IMG/VR virus record: IMGVR_UViG_3300037247_000414
Span: 1-26,441 of that record
From: a virus
Strand: one strand, 5' to 3'
Length of the DNA stretch: 26,441 nt
Part shown: in pieces, positions 1,836 to 24,934 of the stretch
Layout: every line of letters starts with the position of its first letter
Position numbering within the stretch: the stretch's first letter is position 1
Program-made: the position numbers and the translations under genes
The notes under the pieces: model-generated
The model's input: the letters and a program-made list of their open reading frames with translations, nothing else
Told to the model about the DNA's origin: nothing
Databases searched by the model: none

Positions 1836-2225
1836 TTATTCCCCTTTAACTACTCGTTCTTGCCGCTCTGTTTCCTCCGCATTCTCGTCTTGTAGATTGT
1901 GATAGTAATCACTGTCGGTCTTAACTATAGCTTCTCTGGTCATATCCGCCGTGACAGGTGCAAACAACCTCTGACGTAACTCATAAGCCTTTTTCCGCCC
2001 GAAATTCCCTAAAGATTTTCCGAGATTCATAACATCAACGAAAACATCTTTTGGTTTTCCCAACCATTCACAAATACAGAACACCCCAAGTTTGTTGTAT
2101 CTAACTAAAAACAGCTTATTCTTTCTCTCTCGACTGCCTTCCACAAGTTGATTAAGCCAACACGATAGTTCCCCCCCCACTATCGTGTGTTCTGTTAATG
2201 AATAGTTTGACACTAACCCAAGCAT
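1836..2225 (-). CDS. Hypothetical protein, 129 aa
   Basis: No family was recognised. The first 70 residues look like a globular alpha/beta domain (LFLVRYNKLGVFCICEWLGK). The middle is basic with several RKK/RQR patches, and the C-terminus is charged and probably disordered (ENAEETERQERVVKGE). The ATG at 2225 overlaps the TAA of the upstream 81-aa gene by one base (TAATG), and the protease start follows one base after its stop. It therefore belongs to a tightly coupled set downstream of the LamG-like protein. Position in the late operon suggests a virion-associated or assembly role, but nothing in the sequence fixes it. Confidence 0.7.
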   Translation of the reverse strand: MLGLVSNYSLTEHTIVGGELSCWLNQLVEGSRERKNKLFLVRYNKLGVFCICEWLGKPKDVFVDVMNLGKSLGNFGRKKAYELRQRLFAPVTADMTREAIVKTDSDYYHNLQDENAEETERQERVVKGE

Positions 2226-2470
2226 TACTTTTTCTCCGGGGACTTTATCGGAATGATATTGGGTTTTTTCTTGGGAACTTCCGACTTTTTCTTCTGGGCG
2301 GCGAGTTCTTGAGCCGCATCTAATCTTGATGCTTTCTCATATAACATCTGTTCCTCTTGGACTATCAATCCCAACTCATTGCCGGTCAGAGGCATTCCAT
2401 TAATCAATATCCGACCATTAAGCAGGAGATTCCTCAAATCTTTGTGTCCTTGTTCTGTTTGTTGATTCAT
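2225..2470 (-). CDS. Hypothetical small charged protein, 81 aa
   Basis: The protein starts MNQQTEQGHKDLRNLLLNGR and continues with a segment rich in Leu and Glu (LIVQEEQMLYEKASRLDAAQ) that would form a helix or short coiled coil. The C-terminal third is lysine- and proline-rich and probably disordered. It has the GAAAGGAACC SD seen before several genes of this genome, six bases from the ATG. It begins a chain of coupled genes running to the left edge. No known family was identified. The helical start and basic tail resemble small phage assembly or chaperone-like factors, but this is only a guess. Confidence 0.7.
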   Translation of the reverse strand: MNQQTEQGHKDLRNLLLNGRILINGMPLTGNELGLIVQEEQMLYEKASRLDAAQELAAQKKKSEVPKKKPNIIPIKSPEKK

Positions 2471-2548
2471 TTCCGGTTCCTTTCTAAAAAAGTTACATTT
2501 TTTTAGGGGCCAATATAGTTAACCCCCACCATTTTTTTAATCGTTTTC

Positions 2549-3559
2549 TCAATAGGTATCTTTATACAGATAAATCTCAAGTCCAAATGATCCATCTGTC
2601 TCATCAATTCGGAGTGGATTATTTCGCCCTATCTTCAAGGCGTGAGGTAGATTAACAACATTGGTCGGAATAACCCCCGCAGAAGTCAACACTCCTGTGT
2701 TATATTTTATTGATTTCTTGAGGGTATGTGGATCAACCGGAAAACCTATTCCATCAACCCAAGCCGTACTTGAGGATACCCCGTTATTACTCCCCACCAA
2801 ATCGGCGTGAGCAGTCCCGATACCTTCGTCAAGGTTCCAGGCAGCGGATAAATTATTTTCTGTTCCGATAAATTTACTACCTGCCCCCTCTGCCCAAAGA
2901 GCGTCCATTTCTGCGGAGGTAAGAATTTCATCATAAAGGCCAAAGACACTAATATCGAATGTCTCGGAGGCTCCACCGGTAATTACTAAGCTAATTCCAC
3001 TGTCGATGTTACCTACAGCCGAAATATCCACAGCATCAGCAGCAGAAATATTATCGACATACATAGTGAGACCGTCTGTTTCTCCCGCCTCAATATTAAT
3101 GACAACCCAATGCAAAACATCATCGTTGACGGCGTTACGACTCGTAATCGTTACTGGTGCAGTAGCCCCATCGTCAACTGTGCAGAATAACTTTCCATTA
3201 GCATCTATCCCGACGAGCCAGCCATCCCCACTGTCGTCCTTATCCATCATAGTCGGTAGAGAAATGGCATCGGCAGCAGCTTTGATTCCAAACACAATGG
3301 CAAAGTCTCCGGCCCCGGGTTCAAGAGCAGAATCATTGACTACGGTAAAGGTATCTGTATTTCCATTAAATCTCAAGGCAGCCCTCCGCAGAAAGCTAAA
3401 TCCATCTGCGGTTGCTCCGCCCGTAAGAATAAAACCCGTCACGTACCAACTCATATTTATACCGGGGGAATCAGCAAGTTTCGTAAAAGCCGCACCCCCA
3501 TTTAGATGGGAAATAGTACAGCCATCTTCGGGTTTCATTACGCGAATTTCTTGGCTCAT
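2549..3559 (-). CDS. LamG / concanavalin-like jelly-roll virion protein
   Basis: This encodes 336 residues. From about residue 60 to 230 the pattern of alternating strands with [50 protein letters not shown] and [20 protein letters not shown] is typical of the LamG / concanavalin A-like fold (LamG_3 type). That fold is used by phages for glycan binding on tails or capsids. The last 100 residues form a second, less clear beta-rich domain ending in [12 protein letters not shown]. An AAAGGA site precedes the ATG. The gene starts just after a strong terminator that closes the preceding fibre gene, so it may be expressed by readthrough or from a weak promoter I could not place. A receptor-binding or decoration role is inferred. 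Confidence 0.8.
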
Positions 3560-3573
3560 ATTGAAATCCTTTA

Positions 3574-3613
3574 AGAAAAAAGCCGGATGTCCCTATATCC
3601 TCAGGGACACCCG
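3574..3613 (-). terminator. Rho-independent terminator after the 935-aa fibre gene
   Basis: On the minus strand an 11-bp stem (CGGGTGTCCCT pairing with AGGGACATCCG, one G-U wobble) closes an 8-nt loop and is followed by GCTTTTTT. It lies 19 bases past the stop of the 935-aa gene and before the start of the LamG-like gene. The wobble pairs only in minus-strand RNA (it would be an A-C mismatch on the other strand), which supports termination of minus transcription. Confidence 0.85.
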
Positions 3614-3632
3614 CATTTATAAGTATTCAATT

Positions 3633-6440
3633 TTAAGTATTCGAGACGGTAGCACCGGCTTCCAGTGGCTCATACTGACAGAACCATTGGATAGAACCAC
3701 CACTGGTTTCATTTGCACTTGAAGTCATTATTACGGTTCCGGCAGGAAGTATTACCTCGATGCCGTCATCTATGGTTACTCCACCTGTCACTTCAATCAT
3801 AGCACCGCCGAGTGTGGTGTTCATCTTGTAAACTGTTCCGACAGCATCGTTATTACAGTCAAGGTCGGCGGTAATATCTATTGTCCCGCCCGGAGCAGTG
3901 GGAATACCTGAGATTTTCAGGTTCGTAGCTTGGGCATCAACCCCAACGAGTACTACGCCCCAAATCTTAGCCTTGACAGGAGCCGAGACCGTCCATAAAG
4001 CAACCGTAGTCGCACCCCAATCAGTAAGAGTTCTTGTCTGAAGTCTTTTTGCACCTGGGTCAATGACAGCAGTATCGACGAGAATGGCATTAGTATCTGT
4101 GAGAATTAAATCAAGGTGTGACATTAAATCATCTTCATCGTCTCCCCCACCGTCAAACGTGTATGGCCCTATTTTATCAGATAGAACTTCGAGTGAGTCA
4201 GTCCTACAATCAAAGGTGGTTACATCTGCGGCAACACTTAGGACGTGAGCCATCAAGGAACCGGAAACACAATATGTCTCCAAGTCAGAGCCAGCAGCGA
4301 CACTTGTGGTTGTTCCTACAAGATGGTCAAGTTGGTCGCCGTCTAAAGCCACAGAGGCTCCTGTTCCAGCCGCCAAAGCAACCGAGATAGCTTCCAGTGA
4401 ATCAGTGGAGCAGTTGAAATCTGTTACATCTTTTGTAGCAGACATAATGTGAGCCATCAAACTTCCGGCAACAGCAAATGCCTCCAAGTCGCCATCAATG
4501 ACAACACCCGTATCCACTGCCTGTAAGTGGTCAAGTTGAATCCCCGCCCCAAGAGTTATGTCGGTTCGGAGAATATTGGAAAGTGCTTCAAGCGAGTCGG
4601 TTGTGTTATTGTAGGTGCTTGGGTCAGCCGCACCACCTACACTACAGATTTTAGCAATAATCGAATCAGTAGCACAATTCTCAGGATACGCTGCCGTCCC
4701 GTCTATTTCAAGTAAGTAGTTAAGCTCTCTGCTATCAATAGCAGCAAGAGCCGCTGTTTGCTGATTGTCCCGAATGGCTTGGAGTGAATCAGTTGTTGGG
4801 TCAAAATCATTTACGTCACCACCAGCCGCCTTAACCAGAATATGAGCTAAAGCAGAACCAGTCGCTATTTCAGCAGACATATCTTGTTCATCAACGACCG
4901 CCGTCAACATAAAGTGGTCGAGATTTAGACCAGCTAAAACAACTGTGCCCGTTCTAAGAAGGTCAGAAATAGCTTCGAGGGAATCATCAGCAGCAAGGAA
5001 ACTTCCACTACCGTCTTTTTCCAGAATGTCTTGTACCGACCTTGCCGTTGGAGTTGTGCTTACAGCAGTCGTAAAGCCTGTAACTGCAGCTGCAATAGCT
5101 TGGAGCGAATCAGTTGAGGCATTAAAATTAGATGGGTCGGCATCTGTGGCCATAATATGACCCAATATAGATAGGGCCGTGATATGGCCATCCAATTCCC
5201 CATCAGCCGAAATACCTGTAGATGTTTTTGCCAAGTGGTCAAGATTTATACCTGCTAAAACATCCACATCGTCCCGGAGAAGGTTTGAAATGGCTTCCAG
5301 TGAATCTGTAGTATTGTCATAAGTATTTGCACCATCCAACTCCGATAAAATATCCTGTAACGATTTCTCAGTCGGGGTAAGTGGCACTGCTGAACTAACT
5401 ACTGAAGGGTCAACCGCATCAATCGCATCCCGAAGAGCCTCCAGTGAATGTAATTCATTATCGTAGGAAGTAGCCGATGGGATCGCACTTTTGCTCAAGA
5501 GATAAGCCCAAATACTCTCATCAGTTATACCAGACGGATAAGCAAGAGAGCCACGAGCCTCTACAATTAAAGACTCAGAATCATCCTCTCGAACCTGACC
5601 ATCGACATTGTTGACCCGTTTTGCAAATGTACTGGAACCGTCAAAGCTGTAGTTCGTGCCAGATACATCAACGGCACAATTTTCGAGGATATGACTCACG
5701 CCGGTTGCGTCCTCGACGATACCACCCGTAGCCCAAGGACCGTCAATTATAACATTCTGGAAAACTAAACGGTCAGATGCAGCATCAATGTAGATGGCAT
5801 GAGTCGCCCCACCGGCATCTGCGTGAACAAGAATTTTCACGTTCTTGAACTCTGTATCGTGATTGGCGGAAACCAAACGAACTGCCTTAACAAACTCATC
5901 GTCTCCGTTACCAGCTTCTCCCATATCAAAGTCAACATCTTCGAGAGAACAACCGGTAAAGCCGGACTCTATTTCAAGACCGATGGCTACAACAGGAGCA
6001 CCAGGTCGGAATATGACATTTTTAATTTGTACGTCGTTGGCCCCTATAACACATTTTGAGGAGGTATGGTCAAAGTCGAATCTTGCCTTCAAACTACCTC
6101 TCCCAAGGCCAATGATTTTTATACCTGCCACATCAGCATCAAAGCCGGTTGTGGAATCATCATAATCCTCGTAGTGGCCGGGGGCCAAAAGGATTATAGC
6201 CTCTTCACTTGCCTCACATAAGCCAATAGCGTAATCGACTGTGGCAAGTGGTTTTTCAAAAGAATGCCCGTGCTCGGTATCATCGGCATCGAGGGCATTT
6301 GTGTGGATTGCGTCAACGAATAGAAGTTGAGCCTCCGCAAGATTATCAATACCTAATGCGGCAAGATAAATCATTGCCTGCCATCCGTACTTACTTACTA
6401 AATCGGATGTGCGGAAGGGGTTAGTCGCTGGGGTTGCCAT
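3633..6440 (-). CDS. Large fibre/adhesin: beta-helix N-terminus plus tandem TDSLEAI repeats
   Basis: This encodes 935 residues. Residues about 65-280 look like a right-handed beta-helix (pectate-lyase-like), with rungs such as IKIIGLGRGSL, VQIKNVIFRPG, CSLEDVDFDM and TEFKNVKILVHA. About residues 310-810 carry eight degenerate repeats built on an aromatic-x-x-x-TDSLEAI/TDSLQAI core, followed in several units by a helix and GINLDHL or SLMAHIL. The last 115 residues form a separate beta-rich domain (VKAKIWGVVLVGVDAQ, GVTIDDGIEVILPAGT) that may be a trimerisation or knob domain. A good AGGAG site precedes the ATG at 6440. The gene follows the capsid gene through a structured 224-bp spacer and ends in a terminator. 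A surface fibre or capsid-associated adhesin is the best reading. The repeats may form a long stalk in which each helix packs on the next. Confidence 0.82.
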   Translation of the reverse strand: MATPATNPFRTSDLVSKYGWQAMIYLAALGIDNLAEAQLLFVDAIHTNALDADDTEHGHSFEKPLATVDYAIGLCEASEEAIILLAPGHYEDYDDSTTGFDADVAGIKIIGLGRGSLKARFDFDHTSSKCVIGANDVQIKNVIFRPGAPVVAIGLEIESGFTGCSLEDVDFDMGEAGNGDDEFVKAVRLVSANHDTEFKNVKILVHADAGGATHAIYIDAASDRLVFQNVIIDGPWATGGIVEDATGVSHILENCAVDVSGTNYSFDGSSTFAKRVNNVDGQVREDDSESLIVEARGSLAYPSGITDESIWAYLLSKSAIPSATSYDNELHSLEALRDAIDAVDPSVVSSAVPLTPTEKSLQDILSELDGANTYDNTTDSLEAISNLLRDDVDVLAGINLDHLAKTSTGISADGELDGHITALSILGHIMATDADPSNFNASTDSLQAIAAAVTGFTTAVSTTPTARSVQDILEKDGSGSFLAADDSLEAISDLLRTGTVVLAGLNLDHFMLTAVVDEQDMSAEIATGSALAHILVKAAGGDVNDFDPTTDSLQAIRDNQQTAALAAIDSRELNYLLEIDGTAAYPENCATDSIIAKICSVGGAADPSTYNNTTDSLEALSNILRTDITLGAGIQLDHLQAVDTGVVIDGDLEAFAVAGSLMAHIMSATKDVTDFNCSTDSLEAISVALAAGTGASVALDGDQLDHLVGTTTSVAAGSDLETYCVSGSLMAHVLSVAADVTTFDCRTDSLEVLSDKIGPYTFDGGGDDEDDLMSHLDLILTDTNAILVDTAVIDPGAKRLQTRTLTDWGATTVALWTVSAPVKAKIWGVVLVGVDAQATNLKISGIPTAPGGTIDITADLDCNNDAVGTVYKMNTTLGGAMIEVTGGVTIDDGIEVILPAGTVIMTSSANETSGGSIQWFCQYEPLEAGATVSNT

Positions 6441-8288: not shown

Positions 8289-9254
8289 TTATCTCTGTTC
8301 TCGGACGGCTTTAACTACCTTTTGAAGATACCTTGCAACAAGGTTCTTCTCATCACCATCTTCAGGAGAAGGAACTCGCTTGATTGGTTCGTCAGCTTGG
8401 ATTGCAGATGAAAATCCTTCACTCGGTCCCAGGCCCAAAATGATGGGTTGCTGGTTGAGCTTTTTTGGGATACCGAGCTTAGTCAACTGCGACCGCACCC
8501 TCTGTACGCTCGCTGTAACCATCTCAGCCCCAAACGGTTTGCCATCTTGAATCTTCCTAAGAACATCCTCAGCTACCATATCTTTCACAGCAAGGACGAC
8601 TTCATCTTTGTCCTCACCTATTACCATTTTACCAATTATCTCATCTTTGTCAACCGCTTTGTCCGATATTTCTCGAATTTCTTTTCGAGCATCACTGACG
8701 TGCCTCGTAGAAGAATGCTCCAAAATAGCCCGAACCTCCGCAGGGGAAGCTCCCATTTGCTTCTTGAATTCATCGTTAAAGTCCGTAACAGCGGCTTTAC
8801 TGGTCGATTTCTGAGAAGATTTATCTTCCTCGTGGAGAGATGTCATAAATTCCTTAGGGTCGATTTCCAGTAAACCCGCAAGTTCCCGCACTTCCGCCTC
8901 GTTGGGGGCATCGGCTCCCGATATGCTTTTCACAAGAGCCTCCACTCGAATCCCTTTTTCCGCAGCTTTAGTGGCTGTGGCAGCTTCCTGAAACCGCTTA
9001 TCCGCCCCAGACGATTTCGAGGCTCGCTCTTTGAGTTCCTTGATGGTTAGTACGACATCTGTTCCGTCCACGTTAATCGTGTGGGTTTCTGGCTTATTAG
9101 CAGACTCGTCTTTATCCTTATCTACACCTCCACCACCAGCTTTATTAACATCGCCGGCGTTTCCACCATCAGCATTGGTATTGTTGGCCTCATTTTCTTC
9201 GCCGTCAAAGACCATCCTGTTTCCAAATCCAAATAGAGTTTTTAATCTAAACAT
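8289..9254 (-). CDS. Probable scaffolding protein
   Basis: This encodes 321 residues, highly charged and mostly helical or disordered. Residues about 18-55 are a low-complexity Asn/Gly/Asp/Lys segment. Residues about 58-75 form a short ordered strand region (HTINVDGTDVVLTIKELKER). The remainder is rich in Lys, Glu and Ala (VALVKSI and AVKDMVAEDVL types of helix). It ends with a basic helix, YLQKVVKAVREQR, a usual capsid-contacting tail in scaffold proteins. It has a GAAAGGG SD and stands between the portal region and the capsid gene, the canonical scaffold position. No protease motif is visible, so it does not look like a fused maturation protease. Confidence 0.75.
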   Translation of the reverse strand: MFRLKTLFGFGNRMVFDGEENEANNTNADGGNAGDVNKAGGGGVDKDKDESANKPETHTINVDGTDVVLTIKELKERASKSSGADKRFQEAATATKAAEKGIRVEALVKSISGADAPNEAEVRELAGLLEIDPKEFMTSLHEEDKSSQKSTSKAAVTDFNDEFKKQMGASPAEVRAILEHSSTRHVSDARKEIREISDKAVDKDEIIGKMVIGEDKDEVVLAVKDMVAEDVLRKIQDGKPFGAEMVTASVQRVRSQLTKLGIPKKLNQQPIILGLGPSEGFSSAIQADEPIKRVPSPEDGDEKNLVARYLQKVVKAVREQR

Positions 9255-9568: not shown

Positions 9569-11593
9569 TTATTGTTGAGGTAGTTCTCCCTGCGGAGGCT
9601 CCATCTCTAATTCCGCTGCTTCTTCGGGTTGCAACATTTGTTCGGGTAATTCTCCTAATCCTGAACTGTGCTCCTCATCGTGTTTTATAAATTCTTCTCT
9701 TACTTTTACAGAGGCGGCGAAAAACTCCGGACGAGCCATGAAAGTAGCAAGGACTTCTTTGTGAATCATGTGCATATCTCTTTGAGATACAATTACTTTC
9801 CCGGGACTTTCTCCGTCTCCAAACAAGGCAAGATTCTCTAATTTAGCCCGGCGGTAGTTTTGATAAGCAAGTTCGTTACCAACCGGAGATGTTAGTCCCA
9901 TCTCCCTAACCTTAAAACTATATTCGTTAAGAGTTATTATTCCTTTCTCTAAAGCCTCTTTCAGTTCCATTTTCTGTTGTTCTTTAGATATAGGAACTTC
10001 GGAGGCCACGTTGATATTCACTTCATCGGGGGACGGAATAGCATTTCTGGCAAGGTTGATTTCTCCGGTTTCCATATCCAAAACTATCCCGGCAAGAGAA
10101 TCGTCCAAATTACTGATACTAACAACTTTAGTTGCTGGCCAAATGTCTCTACAAATTCCGAGCATAGCTCGATAGACCCCGGATATAGCCTCCGCCACAC
10201 TTTTTGCAGTAGGTGATAATGGAATAGCACTTGTTTCATATAGGAAGCCCAAGCCGGAGGCTGAATCAACACGGCCAGGTGCACCGCCTTTCAACATTTC
10301 TGTTGGTTGGTTTGCTACCTTATCCATCAAGCCCCCAGCAACCATAGCTGCTTCTATATTAGCTTTTCCCATTTTTACAGGTTGTAGCGGGAAGGGTTTC
10401 AACTCTGGGGTCGTATAATCAGGTTCGTATGTTATCCGTTTAATCCCATCCTGACCTCTATGTGCATCGGTAGGAGTCCCAAGAGACGCGGGCCACATCA
10501 TTACGCCGTATAAATCAAAATCAGCTACAGATTGAAAAAGACTACTTAAACTGTATTCCGCCTCAGTATTGAGTGGGAGTAGTTGATCAACAAAAGACCG
10601 ACCATAAAAACCTCCTACAGTAACATCCCTTGCAATTCTTATGGGCATATAGAAATGTTGTTTGGAATGGTCAAAACGATGTAGAAGATTCAGCTTATTA
10701 TAGGAACCGGCAAGTATAAGATACTCCGCCAAATATCCATCAGATGTTTCCGTCCAAACCTCCACAAGTAAAGTGACATCTGTCTGCGTCTTATCCTTTT
10801 TAGTTTTCCTCCCCGCCCATTGAGTCTCTACCTGACTATTACTGGTTGCACTCCTGACAAAGAAACCCCCTCCGACAGTAGTTAGAGAAGCCGTCCCTTG
10901 GAATTTACCGGTAGCATCCGCAGGCAAATCTCCAAATGGAACCTTAAAGTCATCCATTCCCTTATAAACTTTTTGGTTCTTACCCGGAGTTATCGAAAGA
11001 CTCTTCACCCAATCAGTAGGGACATATCTAACCCGAATCAATCCCCGCACATCTGTAGGAGTAGATACATCTATCGGAATCGGAATTAACTCCCAAGGAT
11101 TAATAACTTCAATTCCGATACTATCCGCCCCTTCTACCCATAATCCAAACCCGATTGTTCCATATTGCAACAATGATGGAAATGAATCAAGAGCCAACCG
11201 AGATACTTTCTCCTGCGGAAATACCGAATCCAAAACTACTTGAGCCGTACTTGCCTTTCTCAGCCCATCAAGACTCTGACCTTTTCGAGACACAGCCGGG
11301 GCTAGATTTATAGCCAACAATCTACCAAGTTGGGCTTGATATTTTGCGATAATATCCTCGTACTTAAATTTAAGTACCCCTGACTCATTTAAGTAAGAAG
11401 CATTAAGTGTCCCATCCCCGTAATTTATGTTAGTAAAATTTCTAAGACCCCTCATATAGAAATGATTTATATACCAATTAATCGAGATAGGATTCATCCG
11501 TGACCGACCAGACGTGACCAAGTATTGAAATATCTCCTCTATCTGGGGTTTATTGGCCGGCGTATCTTTCGGAAGTTGAAACTTATAGGACAT
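9569..11593 (-). CDS. Portal protein
   Basis: This encodes 674 residues. The N-terminal 60 residues contain a helix and a NPISINWYINHFYMRG segment. A long alpha/beta middle follows (YGTIGFGLWVEGADSIGIEV, INPWELIPIP). The central part has the portal-typical pattern FYMPIRIARDVTVGGFYGRS, then LLPLNTEAEYSLSSLFQSVA, a helical region of the clip and stem. The C-terminus is acidic and Pro/Glu-rich. The ATG at 11593 lies inside the previous gene, with a GGGGGG-TAATC SD, an 11-base overlap. It follows TerL and precedes scaffold and capsid, the standard order. The length is in the range of podovirus-type portals (P22-like are about 700 aa), but I cannot assign the subfamily. Confidence 0.85.
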   Translation of the reverse strand: MSYKFQLPKDTPANKPQIEEIFQYLVTSGRSRMNPISINWYINHFYMRGLRNFTNINYGDGTLNASYLNESGVLKFKYEDIIAKYQAQLGRLLAINLAPAVSRKGQSLDGLRKASTAQVVLDSVFPQEKVSRLALDSFPSLLQYGTIGFGLWVEGADSIGIEVINPWELIPIPIDVSTPTDVRGLIRVRYVPTDWVKSLSITPGKNQKVYKGMDDFKVPFGDLPADATGKFQGTASLTTVGGGFFVRSATSNSQVETQWAGRKTKKDKTQTDVTLLVEVWTETSDGYLAEYLILAGSYNKLNLLHRFDHSKQHFYMPIRIARDVTVGGFYGRSFVDQLLPLNTEAEYSLSSLFQSVADFDLYGVMMWPASLGTPTDAHRGQDGIKRITYEPDYTTPELKPFPLQPVKMGKANIEAAMVAGGLMDKVANQPTEMLKGGAPGRVDSASGLGFLYETSAIPLSPTAKSVAEAISGVYRAMLGICRDIWPATKVVSISNLDDSLAGIVLDMETGEINLARNAIPSPDEVNINVASEVPISKEQQKMELKEALEKGIITLNEYSFKVREMGLTSPVGNELAYQNYRRAKLENLALFGDGESPGKVIVSQRDMHMIHKEVLATFMARPEFFAASVKVREEFIKHDEEHSSGLGELPEQMLQPEEAAELEMEPPQGELPQQ

Positions 11594-11953: not shown

Positions 11954-11971
11954 ATATCCTCCGCAGGATAT
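11954..11971. repeat. Small perfect palindrome carrying the dispersed CCTCCGCAGG motif
   Basis: ATATCCT and AGGATAT form a 7-bp perfect inverted repeat around CCGC. The 10-bp dispersed motif occupies the centre. It lies between the terL stop and the portal promoter. No T-tract follows on either strand, so it is not a terminator by itself. Confidence 0.6.
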
Positions 11972-12007: not shown

Positions 12008-13846
12008 TTACCCAACTATATTTTGTCTCCCCCGGAAGATACGCCGGTTGTTTTTGTCAATGGCAGACTTGCGGACATTTTTGGAAAGAACATCCAACAT
12101 CTCGTCCGTTATGTCAGATGTACTAACACCTGAAAGCAGTGGAGTACCTTTTATAAGAGGAATATTTCTACGGATTCGTTCTAATAAACTGGGCTTACCT
12201 TTTTCCTTCGTGAACATTCCACCCCGGTTCTTGACGACATAACCTGACATGGCAACTGTATCTATCACATCATCATGCGGGAGCAAAGCTAAATCCTTGG
12301 TAAAATCTTCTGTCTGTTGGTACAACTGATTGAACGGCCATTGCCCGGCAAGATGAACCGGATATTTAATTTTCCCGGGGTGGTATCTCCATTCCAAAGC
12401 CGATATTCGGTCAGCCTTACTCACTCTTGCCGGGTATGTAATGGGATAAACTCTGGCCCGCCAAAGATGACCCGTCTGACTTTCCTTTTCTTCCACATAG
12501 GTTTTAACGGCCTCCGCAAAACTCATCTGAATACTCACTGCTTCTATGCCGAGGATTCTTACCTGCCAAGCTAATCCCTTCTCATAAATCAAATTAAGAA
12601 GTGTCGCATCCTTGGCTCGGCCAAGCCATATATCCAAAATCCACATCACATTATTTGTATCAAATCCGACAATAACAATACAAGAATAATCATTGTACTG
12701 AGACATACCGCTTCCATAGTCGAACAGTAAAATCCGATACATCGGAAGAACCATTTCCCGAAACGGCTTATTGAAATCCTTATAAATCCTACGACCCGGC
12801 TCCATAAAACGCTCCGACCATTTTATATCTCCAATATGAGCCAATGGATTTTTCCAATCAAATTCCCCCTCCACAGTATATTCATTCTTCCGTTGGTCAA
12901 TTACCAGAATGCGTTCCTGTGCCGATACAGGTTCATTACAATATTCTGCTTGAAATGCCGGTCCGCCTATTTCTTTCTTACGAGCCTCAAGCACTTCTTG
13001 AGACCATTTCTCCGGCCAAAGAACACTTACTTTACTAGAGTCATTTTCATCGTAGGTTATCGCCTTCAATGTTTTACGATTCCAGAAATCAAAACGGGGG
13101 TCATCACCTGCTACGGCGTGGTAAAGAAAAGACCTTCTGTTAATTAGCGTACCGACCCAAAAAATAGACGAGCCAAACTCAAGCATCGGTAAAATCTGGC
13201 GAAAGAGGATCGTCTCAAACTTCTCAACAACTGCCTGTGCAGCAGCTTGGGATTCTGAATCCGGGTCATTCTCCGGGTCATCGAGAATAAACAACCTTGG
13301 ACGACCCCCCCGTTTCCGCCCCATAACCGACAATCCCTTTATAATCGCCCCATTCGTGAGACTTAATTGATGATGATTCCAAATCTTCTGACCCCTCGGC
13401 GGTTTCATTGCCCCGAAATCTTGAAGAATTAATTCATTCTCTACAAACTGTTGAATCATCTTATCAAATCTCTCTTCAACCAGTCTATCCGTAGCCAATC
13501 CAAGAGACATCTCATAATGAGGTCGAGTAATAGATATAAGTAAAGGAATCTCTAATCCAATCACTGTCGACTTAGCCGAGCCTCGTGGAGCCGCGGTTGC
13601 ATTTCTCGCATATTCCCCCAAGTCATAAATTAAATCGTAGTGAAACTGAGGACTTTCCTCAAAATTATTTTTATAAAAGAGTTTCCCTACTCCTGCTAAA
13701 TACACGCGACGAAAGAAATTCCACGCCTCAACAAGATGCTGTGGGGTATCCTGCCTATGCAACACAGCCAACCTTGCAGCCTTTTGACCATCAAGAGTTA
13801 GAGAAGGATAATCTATAGGAAGGGGATAATATGAATTTTTCTCCAT
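12008..13846 (-). CDS. terL: Terminase large subunit
   Basis: This encodes 612 residues from ATG 13846, which overlaps the HNH gene stop as TAATG. A longer start at 13876 is possible but has no SD. The ATPase half has a Walker A-like TAAPRGSAKST at about 84-94 and a Walker B RLFILDDPEND at about 184-194. The nuclease half has the RNase H-like acidic set: Asp376 in ILLFDYGSG, Glu435 in ILGIEAVSI and Asp525/526 in LLPHDDVIDT. These show an intact packaging motor and headful or site-specific nuclease. The protein docks on the portal, encoded two genes downstream. The usual small terminase is not obvious; the 139-aa or 312-aa proteins upstream are candidates. Confidence 0.92.
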   Translation of the reverse strand: MEKNSYYPLPIDYPSLTLDGQKAARLAVLHRQDTPQHLVEAWNFFRRVYLAGVGKLFYKNNFEESPQFHYDLIYDLGEYARNATAAPRGSAKSTVIGLEIPLLISITRPHYEMSLGLATDRLVEERFDKMIQQFVENELILQDFGAMKPPRGQKIWNHHQLSLTNGAIIKGLSVMGRKRGGRPRLFILDDPENDPDSESQAAAQAVVEKFETILFRQILPMLEFGSSIFWVGTLINRRSFLYHAVAGDDPRFDFWNRKTLKAITYDENDSSKVSVLWPEKWSQEVLEARKKEIGGPAFQAEYCNEPVSAQERILVIDQRKNEYTVEGEFDWKNPLAHIGDIKWSERFMEPGRRIYKDFNKPFREMVLPMYRILLFDYGSGMSQYNDYSCIVIVGFDTNNVMWILDIWLGRAKDATLLNLIYEKGLAWQVRILGIEAVSIQMSFAEAVKTYVEEKESQTGHLWRARVYPITYPARVSKADRISALEWRYHPGKIKYPVHLAGQWPFNQLYQQTEDFTKDLALLPHDDVIDTVAMSGYVVKNRGGMFTKEKGKPSLLERIRRNIPLIKGTPLLSGVSTSDITDEMLDVLSKNVRKSAIDKNNRRIFRGRQNIVG

Positions 13847-14385: not shown

Positions 14386-15313
14386 TTTTCAATTCCTCTA
14401 AAGCCGGAAGTGTACGAATACAATCGAAGAAAGCGATTGTGGTTACTATACCCGCCGTCCACGCAGCATTCCCTTTATTTGTGCCCATAATGATTTTCAG
14501 GCTCGGCCATACCCCATCAAGATACCCCGGGGTACGCATAATCGCCCAAACCATATCCGGTATTTTAGCCCTATCCACAAAATCCCAACCTGTAGTCGAA
14601 GGGGTCACCAATGGTTGACTACACAACATAACAATGTGCATCGCTACTCCCGAGACGACGAATCCATCTTCCAGAATATATTTCTTCAAAGCCGTAAGTT
14701 CTTTATCCTCCGCAGGTAACTTTTTAACAGCTTCGTGGTCGGAAGTACATTCCCCACAATCAGGACACTCTAAGGACGGGTCGTTGATATGTTTACCCAA
14801 TGCCCACATATCAATTTTCTTCTGCGGAGGTTGAGATTCCTGGGAAGAGGTCTTGGTTGCAGGTTGGAGGTCGGGTTTTGACACAGGGACAGGAATCGTC
14901 TCGGCCAACACATCCTTTATCGTCTTTTGCGTGGGGATTGGACTCTTTGGAGTCGTTATTGGTAACGGCATCATCCCCGCCTCGTCGTTCAGAAGTCTTT
15001 CCTCCGTCTGCCGATTCAGTTCCTCCAGATTCACCATCTCCTGGGAGGGAGGCTCGTCGGGTATCTCGGATGGGTTCTGAGGAATCGGCTCCGTTTGGTA
15101 TTCCTTCGTGAACTTCTCCTGTGCATTCGGGTCTTTTGCCCGTTCCTCGGCTACTTCCTCTATTGAGAAGATTTTCTCTGGCTTGGCTCTGTCTCCTATC
15201 GCCGTCTCTATAGGGTTCAGTTTCAGATTTCGTTTTATCTTCTGTCCCGAGTCTCCTTTCAATATCGTTTCCGTGTCGAATGGGTTTGGTTCTGATTTTT
15301 TTGGTTTTGTCAT
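14375..15313 (-). CDS. Hypothetical 312-aa protein (overlapping gene, candidate packaging factor)
   Basis: Its ATG at 15313 has the AAGGAACC SD of this genome nine bases upstream, although it lies inside the preceding gene in the +1 frame. Residues 1-165 are Glu/Pro/Lys-rich, probably disordered, with purine-rich codons typical of a real coding frame. A CPDCGEC cluster near residue 183 is followed by a helix-rich C-terminal domain (LTALKKYILEDGFVVSGVAM, KIPDMVWAIMRTPGYLDGVW). That domain has no recognised family. It ends just inside the HNH gene. In this position it could be a small-terminase-like or packaging adaptor. The first 503 nt are shared with the upstream gene, and a slip of one base in an A7 run near 15297 would fuse the two frames. 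Confidence 0.75.
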   Translation of the reverse strand: MTKPKKSEPNPFDTETILKGDSGQKIKRNLKLNPIETAIGDRAKPEKIFSIEEVAEERAKDPNAQEKFTKEYQTEPIPQNPSEIPDEPPSQEMVNLEELNRQTEERLLNDEAGMMPLPITTPKSPIPTQKTIKDVLAETIPVPVSKPDLQPATKTSSQESQPPQKKIDMWALGKHINDPSLECPDCGECTSDHEAVKKLPAEDKELTALKKYILEDGFVVSGVAMHIVMLCSQPLVTPSTTGWDFVDRAKIPDMVWAIMRTPGYLDGVWPSLKIIMGTNKGNAAWTAGIVTTIAFFDCIRTLPALEELKNDS

Positions 15314-16196: not shown

Positions 16197-17684
16197 TCAT
16201 TTTTGATTTCTCCTTAGTGCTGCGGAGGCTACGTTAATCATTTTCTGTTTTTGCTCGTCCGTCTCCACAGTTTTAGTAACAGGCGGAGGCGTTTCTACGT
16301 GTAGTGTGATTTCTTGGCCGGGGACTGCTGCGATACGTTTTACCGAGATTTCACAGTATTCTCGTTCCTTCTCGATACCGATGAAGTTGATGCCAAGTTC
16401 CTTGCAGGCCATTCCGGTTGTACCGGAACCTAAAAATGGATCGAGAATTATCTGATCTGCGGGGGGCATCTTGAGTAAAGAACAAAGATATTTCATTAAC
16501 GTAAGGGGTTTGAGTGTTGGGTGATTGTTCTTCTGGTCAACCATACCTATATTGCGTTCTTTGCAGGAAACTTTTGCTTGGTAGAAAAATCGGGAAACTC
16601 CTCCAGAGTCCCCGTAGGTGTCATTTCGTACTGTGTCGGGATTGAATTTACCGTAGGTGTTTTTGTTGGGATTGTCGGACATCTTTCGTTTCGTGTCTGC
16701 AGCCATAAATCCACTTTTCTTGGTTCCGGTTTGCTCATCCAGCATCGCCCCGGCTTCTTCGTCGAGGACAAGATTCGCAGGCCAACGGCCTTGAACCTCA
16801 TGGGGGGGATTATTAGGTTTATTTTTATCGACAGAGCCAAAAACTTCTTCATCAGTTCTTCCCCGCCTGATAAATCCTGCTTCTGGATTCTTGCGTGTTT
16901 CTGTACCGATACGGGCAGCGTCGATGTTTAGGCCGGCGACTCCGTGTTTCTCGGCGTTGTGAGCGAATGTGCCGTCCAGAGGCTTCATTGCCACGATAAT
17001 TGGCTCCCAAGCAGGCTTGAGGGCGGTACCATAGCCATCCCAGAGCTTGGCAAGTTCAGTAGCAGGGGCAGTAATAGGACAATTCCCCGTTTCATTTTTC
17101 ATTTGAGAATACTGATAACTACTTCCACCAGAATGTAAACCTTTATGCCGTTCCTCGAGGACTTTGCGTTTTGCTCCTGCGGCTTTGTCGATGGCTTTGC
17201 TGATGTTGTGGGATTTTGGGAAGCCACTGCCATAGAGCCACATCATGCAGTCTCGGATTTCCCAACCAGCGTCCTCGATAGCACAGGCGAGACGGTGGTA
17301 GGTGCGGGTTCCGCCGAAGCAGAGCAAGAAGCCCCCGGGTTTGGTGATTCGGAGCATTGCCTTAGCCCAGACCGTAAACCATTGCTGAAATTCGGGATTA
17401 CGGGACAAGTCATAGGAACCGGCCCGTCTTGCACCACTATCACGAGTAACCATTTCTGGATTTTTACGTCGGACGGGAACACCATTGATATAATCTGTCT
17501 TATAAGTTAATTTGGTTGTTTTTGGCAGATTGACATTTTCTTGTTTGAAGGTGTCCCAATCCTTACCCATAAAGCCGAGACCATAAGGAGGATCGGTTAG
17601 GATGGCGGAGATGAAGTTGGAGGGCCAAGGAGTTACGACTTCGAGGTTACCTCCGCAGAATATCTTGTTTTTTAGTTGGTTCAT
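16197..17684 (-). CDS. Beta-class N4/N6 DNA methyltransferase, no restriction partner seen
   Basis: This encodes 495 residues from ATG 17684, two bases after the previous stop, with GGAGAACTGAAA as SD. The catalytic DPPY is at residues 31-34 (ILTDPPYGLG). The AdoMet-binding DPFLGSGTTGMA is near residue 415, followed by FIGIEKEREYCEISVKR. DPPY before FxGxG defines the beta class, which makes N6-methyladenine or N4-methylcytosine. The roughly 380 residues between them hold the target-recognition region. No endonuclease gene is nearby, so it is probably an orphan phage methylase. It would protect phage DNA from host restriction or mark it for replication or packaging. Its recognition sequence cannot be read from the sequence. 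Confidence 0.92.
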   Translation of the reverse strand: MNQLKNKIFCGGNLEVVTPWPSNFISAILTDPPYGLGFMGKDWDTFKQENVNLPKTTKLTYKTDYINGVPVRRKNPEMVTRDSGARRAGSYDLSRNPEFQQWFTVWAKAMLRITKPGGFLLCFGGTRTYHRLACAIEDAGWEIRDCMMWLYGSGFPKSHNISKAIDKAAGAKRKVLEERHKGLHSGGSSYQYSQMKNETGNCPITAPATELAKLWDGYGTALKPAWEPIIVAMKPLDGTFAHNAEKHGVAGLNIDAARIGTETRKNPEAGFIRRGRTDEEVFGSVDKNKPNNPPHEVQGRWPANLVLDEEAGAMLDEQTGTKKSGFMAADTKRKMSDNPNKNTYGKFNPDTVRNDTYGDSGGVSRFFYQAKVSCKERNIGMVDQKNNHPTLKPLTLMKYLCSLLKMPPADQIILDPFLGSGTTGMACKELGINFIGIEKEREYCEISVKRIAAVPGQEITLHVETPPPVTKTVETDEQKQKMINVASAALRRNQK

Positions 17685-20549: not shown

Positions 20550-20867
20550 GGGAATTGTGGGGATTTTGAAAATATTTTTGAGATTTTTTTATGGGCCGGA
20601 AATAGAATCCAGCATACCTTATCGGACTTACCTCCGCAGGGTAGGGACTGCGTGAATTTTGGCTGGGAATTTATTGGAGTTTCAACGGGGGAGGTCTTTG
20701 ACCTTAACATTAGCGTCCGATAAAAGGGGCCGACGGGGGGGGCCTCCGCAGGACTTATCGGCCTCGGTGGTTATAGGACTGGCGGTGGTGGATCATGCGG
20801 CGTGATGTTATCGGCATCGGTGGAAATGCGTCCGATACTAACCCCATTAGCCTACTGGGTTTAGCGT

Positions 20868-20992: not shown

Positions 20993-21038
20993 CATAACTG
21001 GAGTCAAGTCGGCATGATCCTGCGGAGGTAAAGAGGAA

Positions 21039-21157: not shown

Positions 21158-21241
21158 TTATAATTCTAACAACCAGATAGGATACAATGTCCCATCCTCA
21201 AACCACAACACTAATGATTCACGATCAATAACTTTTTCATT

Positions 21242-21786: not shown

Positions 21787-21799
21787 TGTTTGTCCTCCT

Positions 21800-21884
21800 G
21801 GATAAACCCCTAAGCTCAGGTCAACCGGTAATGCTGGATCACTTTGCCGGATATTGCAGTTGACCTGTGCTTGAGAGTTTATCC
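21800..21884. ncRNA. Strongly self-complementary intercistronic element
   Basis: Two long stems span 85 bases: GGATAAAC/GTTTATCC (21800-21807 with 21877-21884, 8 bp) and AGC-x-CAGGTCAAC paired with GTTGACCTG-x-GCT (21813-21825 with 21859-21871, 12 pairs around one mismatch). An inner CGGTAA/TTGCCG is possible. In minus RNA the first stem contains the TAA stop of the peptidase gene, and the last bases abut the AGGAGG SD of the next gene. The element could control ribosome access to that gene, or act at the DNA level. Inner-stem mismatches are better tolerated in plus RNA, so the strand is uncertain. Confidence 0.65.
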
Positions 21885-22730
21885 TCCGATATAACCATTT
21901 TGAGTTATTTTACTAAAATCTGAACTCCCCATGTCCTCTACAAGGGACGAACTCAAGTCGTCCCTACCAATATCACCATAAAACATATACTCGAAACAGT
22001 CTATACAGATAATATGTCCGAACACATAATCTACATCGGATAACATCCCGCACAACTCACATTCTCCCGCAAAGCAATCGTCATATCTATTAACAAGAAG
22101 TTTTACGTCCTGGACATACTTTATGTCTTTATTCTTTTGGTAGAACTGTATAAATCGCTTAACTTGTTTTTTTAGAGTCTTCATATCCACATAACTATCT
22201 TTACTGTGTGCAAGCTCATATCCAATACCGACATTCATACAACAAGCCGTAGTTTTTAACTGTGATATATCCGAAAAGGAACCAATACCTATTTCCCAAT
22301 AGTTCCCGATAGCATCACGGAACTGGTCATTGTCAAGCTCATAAGTAACTACATCTCCTCCAGCCCTGTCAAATTCAGCTATCCAGTTATAGTTTTTCAA
22401 GTCGTGATATTGACCAGTTGACTCTATTTTTTCCTCGTTATCGCATATCAACAAGTCGGCATTAAGCTGTTCTGATAACTCATAAGCTACCATACAGCCA
22501 AGTCGGTCGTCAAGTCCATGAGCATATATCCTCTTAACCTTGCCCGACTTAATTCTCTGTTGTCTGATATATTTCGGTTTTATAGCCGTATCGATATGAG
22601 CTACAAACAGAACATCCGCATCTCTATCTATGAAAATCCTGTTTCGTTTTGGGTTTTCCCAGTCCAAAACAAAACTCTGGAGATCTATAAATAACCGCTC
22701 TTTCGATTTTAACCAATACTTTATGTTCAT
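21879..22730 (-). CDS. Zinc metallopeptidase, M20/M28/M42-like, with C-terminal zinc ribbon
   Basis: This encodes 283 residues. It contains the clan MH pattern: His45-x-Asp47 in LFVAHIDTA, HGLDDRLG (71-78, bridging Asp74/75), Glu99-Glu100 in CDNEEKIESTG, Asp154 in SFSDIS and a late His175 in YELAHSKDSY. A two-zinc aminopeptidase or amidohydrolase active site is therefore intact. The protein is short for a whole M20 enzyme because the dimerisation domain is missing, as in M28/M42-like forms. Residues 224-245 carry CELC and CIDC, a zinc ribbon not usual in this family. Its ATG overlaps the upstream cysteine-rich gene by four bases, so the two are co-translated. Substrate unknown; peptides, cell-wall or signalling compounds are possible. 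Confidence 0.8.
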   Translation of the reverse strand: MNIKYWLKSKERLFIDLQSFVLDWENPKRNRIFIDRDADVLFVAHIDTAIKPKYIRQQRIKSGKVKRIYAHGLDDRLGCMVAYELSEQLNADLLICDNEEKIESTGQYHDLKNYNWIAEFDRAGGDVVTYELDNDQFRDAIGNYWEIGIGSFSDISQLKTTACCMNVGIGYELAHSKDSYVDMKTLKKQVKRFIQFYQKNKDIKYVQDVKLLVNRYDDCFAGECELCGMLSDVDYVFGHIICIDCFEYMFYGDIGRDDLSSSLVEDMGSSDFSKITQNGYIGG

Positions 22731-23959
22731 AAGTCAAGTTCTCCCTGCCCTGCAAATTCAGACGGCACAAATACCGGTAGAGGTTTCGATTCCGGTTGAC
22801 AATCTTCACACAATCCATTCTCATCTACAAATAAATTGTCCGTAGACTGCTCACCACATTCCGCACACATCGGATATTTTTCTCCACAACTTTCACAATA
22901 ACAACAATCGCCTATAACTTGATAATTTTCTTTGTTATACTCTCCGCAGTCTTCACATTTTTGGTAGTTATCTGTACAATTACTGCACACATATATATCG
23001 ACATCTACGATACTTACCATATCGTCCCTGCTAACTAACTCGTCACAGTTTCCGCACCAAGAAAAAAGCTCATTGGCACAGCTTTCACAATAACAACAAT
23101 CGCCTGCACATATCGCTTCGTCCTCCGACGTATGGTCTCCACAATTTTCACAAACATAACCTCTTCCTAAACTCCCATCTGTAGATAGAAGCTCATAATC
23201 TTGACATCCGTAGGCAGATATTGACAATCCTGATCCACAAATACATCCATTTTCCATAGTGTCCATATAGGGAACTTGTCCATCTTCATAAGATAAACCG
23301 CTCACACTCAAGGTAGAATTTTCACAAGTAACGTCTCTACATCCAGCTTTAGTTGAGATTCGATAGTCCCAATCTGCCCCCTCCGCATAAGACTGCATTT
23401 TCTCAGCGAGCATATTACAACTGGAATATACTCTATCCATGAAAAACCTGCCATTGTCAAGTTTATGCACAATAGCCCTGGCACTATCCTCTTGATAAAA
23501 AATAGTCAACATCTGAAACCTATCGGGATTATTTTCATATAATAACGTACAGCCTGATCCTCCTCCAGGTCCTCCATCACACATACAAGACACCACACCG
23601 ACACCATTCTTATAAGCTCTTGTTATATCCTGCCCCCTAATAAGCTCTATGGCTATGTCATCGGAAAATAGCTCACTATTGATATTTTCCGCAATAACCG
23701 CAATAGACTTATCAGACAAAAACCCACTGTTTAGATTCAGTTTTCTAGTCAAAAATCTGCCTGTCTTAATCTTCATTCTGTTTTTGTCCGGCACATCGAA
23801 AGCTATCCTCCCAGTTGAGCTATCTTCTGGTATAGACGGTTGTAGTTTATCCAGTAGGTCATTGATTATATATCGTCTTGATAACCAACAGTTGAAACCC
23901 CTGGTTTGCAGTACCTCCGTCCCAATTAAGTCCCAAAACATATCAGATAAAACGTCCAT
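22727..23959 (-). CDS. Very cysteine-rich protein with tandem zinc-ribbon modules
   Basis: This encodes 410 residues from ATG 23959, with CGGAGGTATAGA as SD. The first 110 residues are basic with a helical start (MDVLSDMFWDLIGTEVLQTR). The middle has a CMCDGGPGGGSGC loop. From about residue 245 to 390 the sequence is dense in CxxC pairs: CENC, CYCESC twice in the form GDCCYCESC, CGNC, CSNC, CEDC, CAEC, CEDC. The order suggests four to six zinc-ribbon or RING-like knuckles. The acidic segments between them resemble eukaryotic-type multi-finger proteins, but no full RING or LIM signature was found. It precedes the metallopeptidase and overlaps it by four bases, a likely functional pair. Confidence 0.8.
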   Translation of the reverse strand: MDVLSDMFWDLIGTEVLQTRGFNCWLSRRYIINDLLDKLQPSIPEDSSTGRIAFDVPDKNRMKIKTGRFLTRKLNLNSGFLSDKSIAVIAENINSELFSDDIAIELIRGQDITRAYKNGVGVVSCMCDGGPGGGSGCTLLYENNPDRFQMLTIFYQEDSARAIVHKLDNGRFFMDRVYSSCNMLAEKMQSYAEGADWDYRISTKAGCRDVTCENSTLSVSGLSYEDGQVPYMDTMENGCICGSGLSISAYGCQDYELLSTDGSLGRGYVCENCGDHTSEDEAICAGDCCYCESCANELFSWCGNCDELVSRDDMVSIVDVDIYVCSNCTDNYQKCEDCGEYNKENYQVIGDCCYCESCGEKYPMCAECGEQSTDNLFVDENGLCEDCQPESKPLPVFVPSEFAGQGELDL

Positions 23960-24002
23960 TCTATACCTCCGAAAAAGTGAAAACCTCCAATTTACTCTGC
24001 CA

Positions 24003-24031
24003 AGTATAACACATCCCGTCCGGCAAGTCAA
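24003..24031 (-). promoter_or_regulatory. Promoter for the cysteine-rich protein and peptidase operon
   Basis: TTGACT (24031-24026) and TATACT (24008-24003), 17-bp spacer, TGT before the -10, minus strand. The leader to the ATG at 23959 is about 37 nt. Confidence 0.85.
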
Positions 24032-24075
24032 GTAAAAAATACTAAAGAATAGAAAAAATACCAGTTATTTTACAT

Positions 24076-24106
24076 CCTCCGCAAGATACCTCTTTTCCTG
24101 CGGAGG
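24076..24106. repeat. Inverted pair of the dispersed motif
   Basis: CCTCCGCA (24076-24083) and TGCGGAGG (24099-24106) form an 8-bp perfect stem with a 15-nt loop. This is two copies of the dispersed motif in opposite orientation, in the 90-bp gap between the tiny-gene cluster and the next promoter. No T-tract follows. Confidence 0.7.
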
Positions 24107-24119
24107 TTATGTGTAGTCG

Positions 24120-24197
24120 CTACAATCCCCCCAGCCCATCTTCTCCCTCCGACCGATACCATCCCCAAAAAGCCCCACAACAAAGAACTAAGCCCAT
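24120..24197 (-). CDS. Tiny 25-aa ORF, tentative
   Basis: MGLVLCCGAFWGWYRSEGED then GLGGL. The ATG overlaps the stop of the 42-aa gene (TAATG). The first 12 residues are hydrophobic with two Cys, so it may be a lipoprotein-like or membrane peptide. Supported only by coupling and the pattern of its neighbours. Confidence 0.35.
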   Translation of the reverse strand: MGLVLCCGAFWGWYRSEGEDGLGGL

Positions 24198-24325
24198 TAC
24201 TTTAATCTTGATAAGTAGTCTCGATAAGCCTGTCGTGCCTGGGCCACAGTTAAACTACCTTGTCGGACCAACATCCTATATCTGGTCTTTTTTTCTGCTC
24301 TATTATTCGGTAATGATATTGACAT
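24197..24325 (-). CDS. Small basic protein, 42 aa
   Basis: Starts MSISLPNNRAEKKTRYRMLV, then RQGSLTVAQARQAYRDYLSR. Basic helical protein of the kind common in phage early regions. AAGGGGGC lies six bases before the ATG. Gene-length and coding pattern are good for its size. Function unknown. Confidence 0.55.
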   Translation of the reverse strand: MSISLPNNRAEKKTRYRMLVRQGSLTVAQARQAYRDYLSRLK

Positions 24326-24336
24326 TTTTAGCCCCC

Positions 24337-24462
24337 TTAATTTATATCGCTTTCGTCCCATGTTTGAACAGCCGGACCTTCTCCCCGCTCCCCGTCTTCT
24401 TTTATGGAGCTACTCCATAGAATATAAAAGCCTATTATTATTGCTAAAATCAGTTTTCCCAT
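24337..24462 (-). CDS. Small membrane protein, 41 aa
   Basis: MGKLILAIIIGFYILWSSSI forms one N-terminal membrane segment, followed by an acidic tail rich in Glu and Asp. GAGGAGAT overlapping the previous stop serves as SD. One of a row of tiny membrane proteins after the minus promoter at 24571-24598. Confidence 0.6.
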   Translation of the reverse strand: MGKLILAIIIGFYILWSSSIKEDGERGEGPAVQTWDESDIN

Positions 24463-24473
24463 TCTCAATCTCC

Positions 24474-24551
24474 TCAGCATAAACTACAAAACGCAGCAAT
24501 TACCAGGATAAGCATTTGGTTTGTCGATATGTTGTCAAATATCATTTTCAT
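24474..24551 (-). CDS. Tiny 25-aa membrane peptide
   Basis: MKMIFDNISTNQMLILVIAA followed by FCSLC. A hydrophobic C-terminal half suggests a membrane peptide. AGGAGGTG stands seven bases before the ATG, and a minus promoter lies 20 bases upstream, so expression is likely. Confidence 0.5.
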   Translation of the reverse strand: MKMIFDNISTNQMLILVIAAFCSLC

Positions 24552-24570
24552 TTTTTCACCTCCTAAGTAA

Positions 24571-24598
24571 AGTATAGCACCTAAAACAAAAAAAACAA
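24571..24598 (-). promoter_or_regulatory. Promoter for the tiny-gene cluster
   Basis: TTGTTT (24598-24593) and TATACT (24576-24571), 16-bp spacer, TGC before the -10, in an A/T-rich tract. The -35 is weaker than elsewhere. Confidence 0.6.
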
Positions 24599-24599
24599 G

Positions 24600-24781
24600 T
24601 AAAAAATGATTTTTTTTATTGACTATCCTTTACTTATAAGGTATAATGAAAATGGATTTTTACCTGATATGCGGAAATAGTTATCGGACTATACAGGGGG
24701 GATGAGGGGTTTATCGGACGCAGAAGATTATCGGACTATCCCAATTTCGATACTGCGTGAATTTCCACTCACACTCCAAAC
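24600..24781. other. A/T-rich non-coding block with TTATCGGAC repeats and plus promoter
   Basis: No gene here. TTATCGGAC occurs at 24681-24689, 24711-24719 and 24728-24736, all direct; two copies extend to TTATCGGACTAT. ACTGCGTGAATTT follows at 24752-24764. The same sequences occur in the 20550-21241 block. A homopolymer-rich tract precedes the repeats. The combination of an A/T-rich stretch, a promoter directed across repeats and shared iterons suggests an origin or a protein-binding control site; inferred. Confidence 0.6.
24619..24647 (+). promoter_or_regulatory. The only plus-strand promoter, directed at the repeats
   Basis: TTGACT (24619-24624) and TATAAT (24642-24647), 17-bp spacer. It points rightward across the TTATCGGAC repeats into genes that are all on the minus strand. 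No plus-strand coding sequence longer than 17 codons follows, so it would make an untranslated or antisense RNA, or a replication primer. Confidence 0.75.
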
Positions 24782-24934
24782 CTACCGCCTCCTCCGCAGT
24801 AATCCCTCCCGTTTGAGCTTGGCGTATTCCCAATCAAACCGATGATGCCCAATCGTCCCAGTAGCATAAGCCCACCGTAAATCCAATTCCTCACGGCTAA
24901 CCTGCGGAGGTCTTCGTTTACTGCCTTTACTCAT
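24782..24934 (-). CDS. Small basic phage protein, 50 aa
   Basis: MSKGSKRRPPQVSREELDLR followed by WAYATGTIGHHRFDWEYAKL. The MSKGSxxRPxQVSREE start is a recognisable short phage-protein pattern in my memory, function unknown. The ATG overlaps the previous stop, the frame is clean and basic throughout. No motif beyond the start is assignable. Confidence 0.75.
   Translation of the reverse strand: MSKGSKRRPPQVSREELDLRWAYATGTIGHHRFDWEYAKLKREGLLRRRR

Follow-up and report, generated by a model that had tools for sequence, protein, structure and literature searches.

A dispersed, asymmetric word with strand-wise even spacing in a clade of uncultured tailed phages

The window analysed here, the whole 26,441-nt stretch of an IMG/VR record from an uncultured tailed phage, contains mostly leftward genes, and its proteins include a terminase (phrog_38), an N6/N4 methyltransferase, an AAA_25 helicase, an HNH endonuclease with NUMOD4 and a trypsin-like protease. 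Scattered through it are 20 copies of the TGCGGAGG core against 1.28 expected under a Markov-3 model, reading on the plus strand as 13 CCTCCGCA and 7 TGCGGAGG. The full 10-mer CCTGCGGAGG is present nine times (five on one strand and four on the other), where the same model predicts 0.10. The motif is the top over-represented 7-, 8-, 9- and 10-mer of the window under Markov orders 2 and 3, and the reversed word, used as a control, gave no 10-mer occurrences. An earlier note on this DNA had claimed twenty cores and nine complete 10-mers, with about one copy expected by chance; the counts agree exactly, and the case is stronger than the note made it. Two of its core coordinates call for correction: the core placed at 23390 is actually at 23380, and 24901 is the start of a 10-mer with its core at 24903. 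The inverted pair that it described at 24076-24106 is there, as is an imperfect palindrome around 11954-11971. The copies are listed below.

1874-1881, minus strand: TGCGGAGG core (AATGCGGAGG)
2912-2919, plus strand: TGCGGAGG core (TCTGCGGAGG)
3383-3390, minus strand: TGCGGAGG core (TCTGCGGAGG)
6332-6339, minus strand: TGCGGAGG core (CTTGCGGAGG)
8735-8744, minus strand: full 10-mer CCTGCGGAGG
9589-9598, plus strand: full 10-mer CCTGCGGAGG
11958-11967, minus strand: full 10-mer within the imperfect palindrome ATATCCTCCGCAGGATAT (11954-11971)
12511-12518, minus strand: TGCGGAGG core within the terminase gene
14707-14716, minus strand: full 10-mer; left member of a divergent pair with 14823
14823-14830, plus strand: TGCGGAGG core (TCTGCGGAGG); right member of the pair with 14707
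16221-16228, plus strand: TGCGGAGG core (GCTGCGGAGG)
17650-17657, minus strand: TGCGGAGG core (TCTGCGGAGG)
20631-20640, minus strand: full 10-mer
20743-20752, minus strand: full 10-mer; left member of a divergent pair with 21021
21019-21028, plus strand: full 10-mer; right member of the pair with 20743
23380-23387, minus strand: TGCGGAGG core (TATGCGGAGG)
24076-24083, minus strand: TGCGGAGG core (CTTGCGGAGG); left arm of the tightest divergent pair
24097-24106, plus strand: full 10-mer; right arm of the tightest divergent pair
24791-24798, minus strand: TGCGGAGG core (ACTGCGGAGG); left member of a divergent pair with 24901
24901-24910, plus strand: full 10-mer; right member of the pair with 24791

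A simple gene call places 15 of these copies inside genes and 5 outside them, bearing out the description of coding copies in several frames and intergenic copies in both orientations. The genic copies span five of the six possible frame/sense combinations (all six in most relatives), so that a single codon pair does not explain them. Nor does the motif behave as a ribosome-binding signal: genes contain it, both senses are used, and several leftward open reading frames are preceded by a different word, AAAGGAACC. The latter, seen as GGTTCCTTT just upstream of such frames at 2475, 19656, 20076, 20268 and 20475, is probably the usual ribosome-binding stretch of the phage. Another repeated word, GTCCGATA(A), lies mostly in non-coding DNA at 20620, 20715, 20830, 24682, 24712 and 24729, with three copies within ~60 bp (24682-24736). 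It is repeated also in five relatives (G003, G004, G009, G027 and G057), and its copies are possibly origin iterons or operators.

All genomes used for comparison are metagenomic contigs, the ends of which are not defined, and the relatives are not independent of one another. Fifteen relatives at 73-83% terminase identity were fetched and the word is present in all 15; further members, at 40-65% protein identity and with a GC content of 38-55%, have it at densities of about 0.6 to 1.3 per kb. The clade consensus, drawn from 465 sites in 14 contigs, is YYCTGCGGAGG, in which position -1 is C in 88% of sites and positions -2 and -3 are mostly pyrimidines. Across 14 contigs CTGCGGAGG occurs 410 times against 7.2 expected, and the best tolerated variants, TTGCGGAGG and CTGCGGGGG, are enriched ~6-fold. 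Outside the ~11-bp consensus the flanks are unconserved, which argues against a mobile repeat of the MITE or REP type. One viral contig found by pattern search (G022; 13 copies against 3.3 expected, GC 60%) shares virtually no genes with the clade and was rejected as a member. A terminase query against 84,980 species genomes, run as a provirus search, returned no relative, and the nearest isolates in a phage collection have terminase identities of only 22-25%. The clade-specific word is also a simple marker for spotting contigs of this lineage.

Within aligned homologous genes, the word keeps its position at a much higher rate than other 8-mers do (0.62 vs 0.11 for proteins sharing 60-70%). 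Where the encoded amino acids are unchanged, it is identical in 51 of 55 comparisons at 30-45% protein identity, 183 of 223 at 45-60%, 151 of 174 at 60-75% and 138 of 154 at 75-90%. This amounts to 82-93% identity, where GC-matched 8-mers reach 13-18%, a wide difference even though the comparisons are not independent. Selection on the word at the DNA level, as opposed to a codon artefact, is therefore strongly supported. Codon-pair preference, the counter-explanation named by the earlier note, is excluded by the spread over five frame/sense combinations, the non-coding copies and conservation beyond the amino acids. In the most distant member of the clade (G015), few positions are shared but the density is similar, so sites turn over and their density is maintained.

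The new result is the arrangement of the copies. Same-strand copies avoid one another and lie ~2-3 kb apart (mean gap 2.2 kb), with gaps below 500 bp making up 9.8% against 20.7% under random placement and gaps above 7 kb 1.3% against 4.3%. Gap evenness per strand is above random with a combined z of -8.9 over the 16 contigs of the TGCGGAGG clade, and strands alternate between neighbours in 97 of 142 cases, compared with 72 ± 6 after shuffling. As controls, 150 strand-balanced 6-mers of similar frequency were measured in a 12-contig set. There the motif had an evenness z of -8.0 (control mean +1.6, lowest -2.0), a strand alternation of 0.66 (controls at most 0.53) and a ratio of same- to opposite-strand copies below 600 bp of 0.34 (controls at least 0.75). 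Since the control 6-mers lack such geometry, it is a property of the motif and not general to these genomes.

Opposite-strand copies prefer the divergent order CCTCCGCA..TGCGGAGG. In the TGCGGAGG clade, 26 divergent pairs lie within 100 bp against 11.8 expected, whereas there are no convergent pairs at this distance against 11.7 expected. Even spacing strand by strand suggests that on each strand a site is required every few kilobases, and that another copy close by on that strand brings little benefit. The favoured divergent pairs, together with the exclusion of close convergent ones, indicate that the site has a direction, and most simply it acts toward the 3' side of its G-rich strand. Terminator hairpins do not account for this pattern, because most pairs span more than 100 bp, and either order of an inverted pair would form a hairpin, yet the main clade favours one. 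Taken with the DNA-level conservation, the geometry lends strong support to the original suggestion of a selected element.

Deeper relatives were reached via terminase and polymerase profiles, and 245 terminase relatives were found. Those at a terminase identity of ~53% or less lack TGCGGAGG and have their own top word instead. These sister words, among them TCTGCGGGGCA, TCTGCAGAGG, CCTGGGACCAC, CCAGTGGGGGT, ACCGGGAGAGT and GCAGAGACAGG, are dispersed, mostly G-rich and for the most part evenly spaced strand-wise, typically with about 17-46 copies per record. Assignments to records include the following.

TCTGCGGGGCA: G028
TCTGCAGAGG: G029, G057
CCTGGGACCAC: G030, G031
CCAGTGGGGGT: G032-G034, G045
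ACCGGGAGAG(T): G035, G052
ATCGGGAGAGAGT: G043
GCAGAGACAGG: G036
TGACGGGGGAC: G039

Per-strand evenness is clearest in G030/G031 (combined z -4.9) and G032-G034 (-3.8), with z about -2 in G028 and G029 and weaker values of -1.3 in G036 and G037. Strands alternate in 21 of 25 cases in G029 and 31 of 36 in G030/G031. Pooling all sister records gives 8 divergent and 8 convergent pairs within 100 bp, a count for which G030 and G031 were turned to read CCTGGGACCAC, an orientation chosen by resemblance; only the TGCGGAGG clade clearly lacks such close convergent pairs. A strand bias of ~2:1 marks the CAGTGGGG branch and its neighbour (G032, G033, G034, G045 and G040), in contrast to the balanced main clade. 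Further strongly repeated words in L317, L318 and G042 (CGATGCCG; GCCTTGGCGT, GGCGTAGGCG) are apparently separate repeats. In trees of TerL and PolA, the TGCGGAGG clade forms one branch, its neighbours carry one- or two-base variants (TGCGGGGC, TGCAGAGG) and unrelated words occupy deeper branches; the word drifts along the phage tree, in concert across sites. A small ERCC4 tree, built with no support test, places G015 among the sister branches. The same k-mer scan found no comparable word in the distant PolA relatives PMBT14 and MW202455, or in lambda, phiKMV and Tripp.

Gene presence was tabulated for 26 motif-bearing records of at least 38 kb and 4 motif-free ones, three of which had been picked up through PolA. 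An ERCC4-type nuclease is found in 25 of the 26 motif-bearing and none of the 4 motif-free records, an association based on few negatives. The corresponding figures are 25/26 and 3/4 for the family-A DNA polymerase (PolA), 25/26 and 2/4 for a Sak4-like gene, 26/26 and 1/4 for portal and capsid genes, and 26/26 and 2/4 for the terminase. One record (G038) has the virion genes in common but is without the polymerase, ERCC4 and Sak4 genes, and is also without a dispersed word. An exception is G044 (L443-L445), which has a dispersed word, ACGGGTCGG (18 and 12 copies), and no detectable ERCC4-type gene. The window's own N6/N4 methyltransferase family was detected in only 6 of the 26 motif-bearing full-length records and is therefore not the reason for the word, contrary to the methylation reading in the earlier note.

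The putative ERCC4-type gene is small and lies near the family-A polymerase gene. Its label is a weak one, resting on a sub-threshold Pfam score (21.4 bits, cut-off 24) and a moderate PHROG match (phrog_3490, E 2.6e-7); G-D-Y and E-R-K are invariant in the alignment. The single structure model of the protein is of low confidence, and no solved structure matched the protein. The replication half of G009 encodes 33 proteins, none of which matched a primase family apart from a helicase matching primase/helicase families; this is not proof that a primase is truly absent. PDDEXK_1 and Sak4-like families are encoded among the replication genes of G009 and/or G035 and G004. The family-A polymerase has an N-terminal uracil-DNA-glycosylase-like domain in G004 (L039:8740-11325) and G009 (L042:2739-5408).

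The earlier note had also suggested a HIP1-like or uptake signature of the host. However, the word is limited to one phage clade, sister clades have words of their own, and the drift follows the phage tree. In the phages CTGCGGAGG reaches about 0.66 per kb (about 0.65 in G003, with 35 copies in 54 kb), whereas it occurs at no more than about 0.04 per kb in 30 whole cellular genomes, drawn from an inverted-pair scan among the matches listed; the host may lie outside this sample. None of the 30 comes within a factor of 10 of the phage density, making a host signature unlikely. The scan itself, run in search of a host, gave among the matches listed mainly isolated pairs, several of them in Rikenellaceae and none in motif-rich surroundings. 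In several Rikenellaceae/Alistipes genomes (L129, L131, L138, L146, L151 and similar), short inverted pairs of the form CCTCCGCAG..CTGCGGAGG recur at a nearly constant gap and may be terminators. Uptake sequences, too, are described as evenly spaced with a minority forming inverted repeats, but their uptake is orientation-independent (PMC1939737), whereas spacing here is even per strand. Since most motif-bearing relatives also lack the methyltransferase family, we regard a signature imposed by the host, whether a DNA uptake sequence, a HIP1-like element or a host methylation motif, as very improbable. Chi-like control of recombination, in which an exonuclease or helicase reads the motif directionally and switches from degradation to recombination, deserves more weight, though it is still rather unlikely. 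The reader could be a host enzyme of the RecBCD/AddAB type or the phage PD-(D/E)XK nuclease with the Sak4-like protein, families present in the replication modules noted above. Known Chi sites are short, asymmetric and usually G-rich, as most of these words are, and even spacing on each strand would limit the loss from any break. A host Chi site, however, should be frequent in the host genome, which was the case in none of the 30 sampled, and drift on the phage tree would demand hosts diverging in parallel. While such control accounts for even spacing, it offers no clear reason for the missing close convergent pairs.

Two further possibilities are drawn from phages themselves. The motif could mark dispersed sites at which a phage repressor or an architectural protein binds, as with stoperators or P1 operators, with effects on transcription or genome folding, and such a protein could bridge divergent pairs. 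Cluster A stoperators are likewise dispersed and asymmetric, and their sequence follows genome distance, but they are predominantly in one orientation relative to transcription (PMC6550527). The motif uses both orientations about equally, though the genes run nearly all one way; most sites are intragenic, structural genes included, and no universal repressor-like gene emerged from the module comparison. We consider this explanation unlikely. Slightly more unlikely still is that packaged DNA bears permanent single-strand nicks at the motif, as the DNA of T5, phiKMV and tf does, and that these serve packaging or ejection and not replication. Phage tf has 14 localized nicks at a dispersed 9-mer, TACT/RTGMC, and in tf and related phages the nicks are confined to one strand, at positions common to tf relatives. 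The motif resembles these sites in being a dispersed, over-represented, asymmetric word of ~9 nt at positions conserved between relatives, and the T5 consensus R/GCGCRGG, as quoted in PMC3517423, is similar to GCGGAGG. All known examples are nonetheless on one strand only, and our k-mer scan recovers the tf 9-mer as the top word of tf with 0 and 11 copies by strand, whereas CTGCGGAGG is split 20 and 20 in G004 and the window cores 7 and 13.

A recombination or replication signal, also raised by the earlier note, is the best-fitting candidate class. Our preferred explanation, to which we give somewhat less than even weight, is that the motif is a directional, strand-specific recognition site of a phage-encoded DNA-processing system, likely a nick or primer start. 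Sites would be placed at regular intervals on each strand over the whole genome, and a phage enzyme would mark its strand at each copy by a nick or a primer. DNA synthesis or processing would then leave on the 3' side of the G-rich strand, so that divergent pairs would form small bidirectional start points, whereas close convergent pairs would collide and break the duplex. Nicks or primers would fit both properties of the geometry, because two close convergent starts would run off each other's template and divergent ones would not. Judging from gene neighbourhood and co-occurrence, the best-placed enzyme would be the small nuclease of ERCC4 type whose gene lies near that of the family-A DNA polymerase. 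The localized nicks of tf at a dispersed word provide a precedent, and the lack of a recognised primase family in G009's replication half also speaks for this reading. While selection and geometry are demonstrated in the sequences, the mechanism and the enzyme, including its phage origin, are inferred. One observation against this reading is that both strands are used about equally, unlike the one-strand nicks of T5-, phiKMV- and tf-like phages.

It is possible, if on balance doubtful, that these phages carry a genome-wide positional code not previously described, with a phage recogniser, a clade-specific word that is maintained at even distances along either strand and evolves in concert at dozens of sites, and divergent pairing. 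Such a code could represent distributed replication starts primed by nicks or primers without a conventional primase. The motif system is undescribed in the literature searched, the coverage of which leaves out many subscription journals. If the proposal is true, a large group of uncultured phages organizes DNA copying or recombination around distributed strand-specific signals. The lineage offers strong selection, clear geometry, many natural word variants and a short list of candidate enzymes, so that recogniser and word could be matched by evolution and tested in the tube.

To our knowledge, the role of dispersed nick sites in phages has not become clear since their discovery in T5. The motif shares with the interruptions of T5, phiKMV and tf a short asymmetric word, dispersal over coding and non-coding DNA and positions common to relatives. 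Those interruptions, however, lie on one strand (14 sites in tf), whereas the motif, known from sequence alone, occupies both strands about equally with ~40 copies, per-strand even spacing and divergent pairs. Chi sites of RecBCD/AddAB are likewise short, asymmetric, usually G-rich and in principle direction-dependent, but are a signal of the host genome, whereas the motif is specific to a phage clade and drifts along the phage tree. Cluster A mycobacteriophage stoperators are also dispersed asymmetric phage sites that drift in sequence with genome relatedness; they have one main orientation and are bound by the immunity repressor, whereas the motif is found in both orientations, inside genes and evenly spaced. 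The DNA uptake sequences of Haemophilus and Neisseria are similarly over-represented, with even spacing reported and some inverted pairs, but belong to cellular genomes and are orientation-neutral, in contrast to the strand-wise spacing of the motif in phage genomes. HIP1 of cyanobacteria is over-represented genome-wide as well, but it is a palindrome and host-wide, whereas the motif is asymmetric and specific to a phage lineage.
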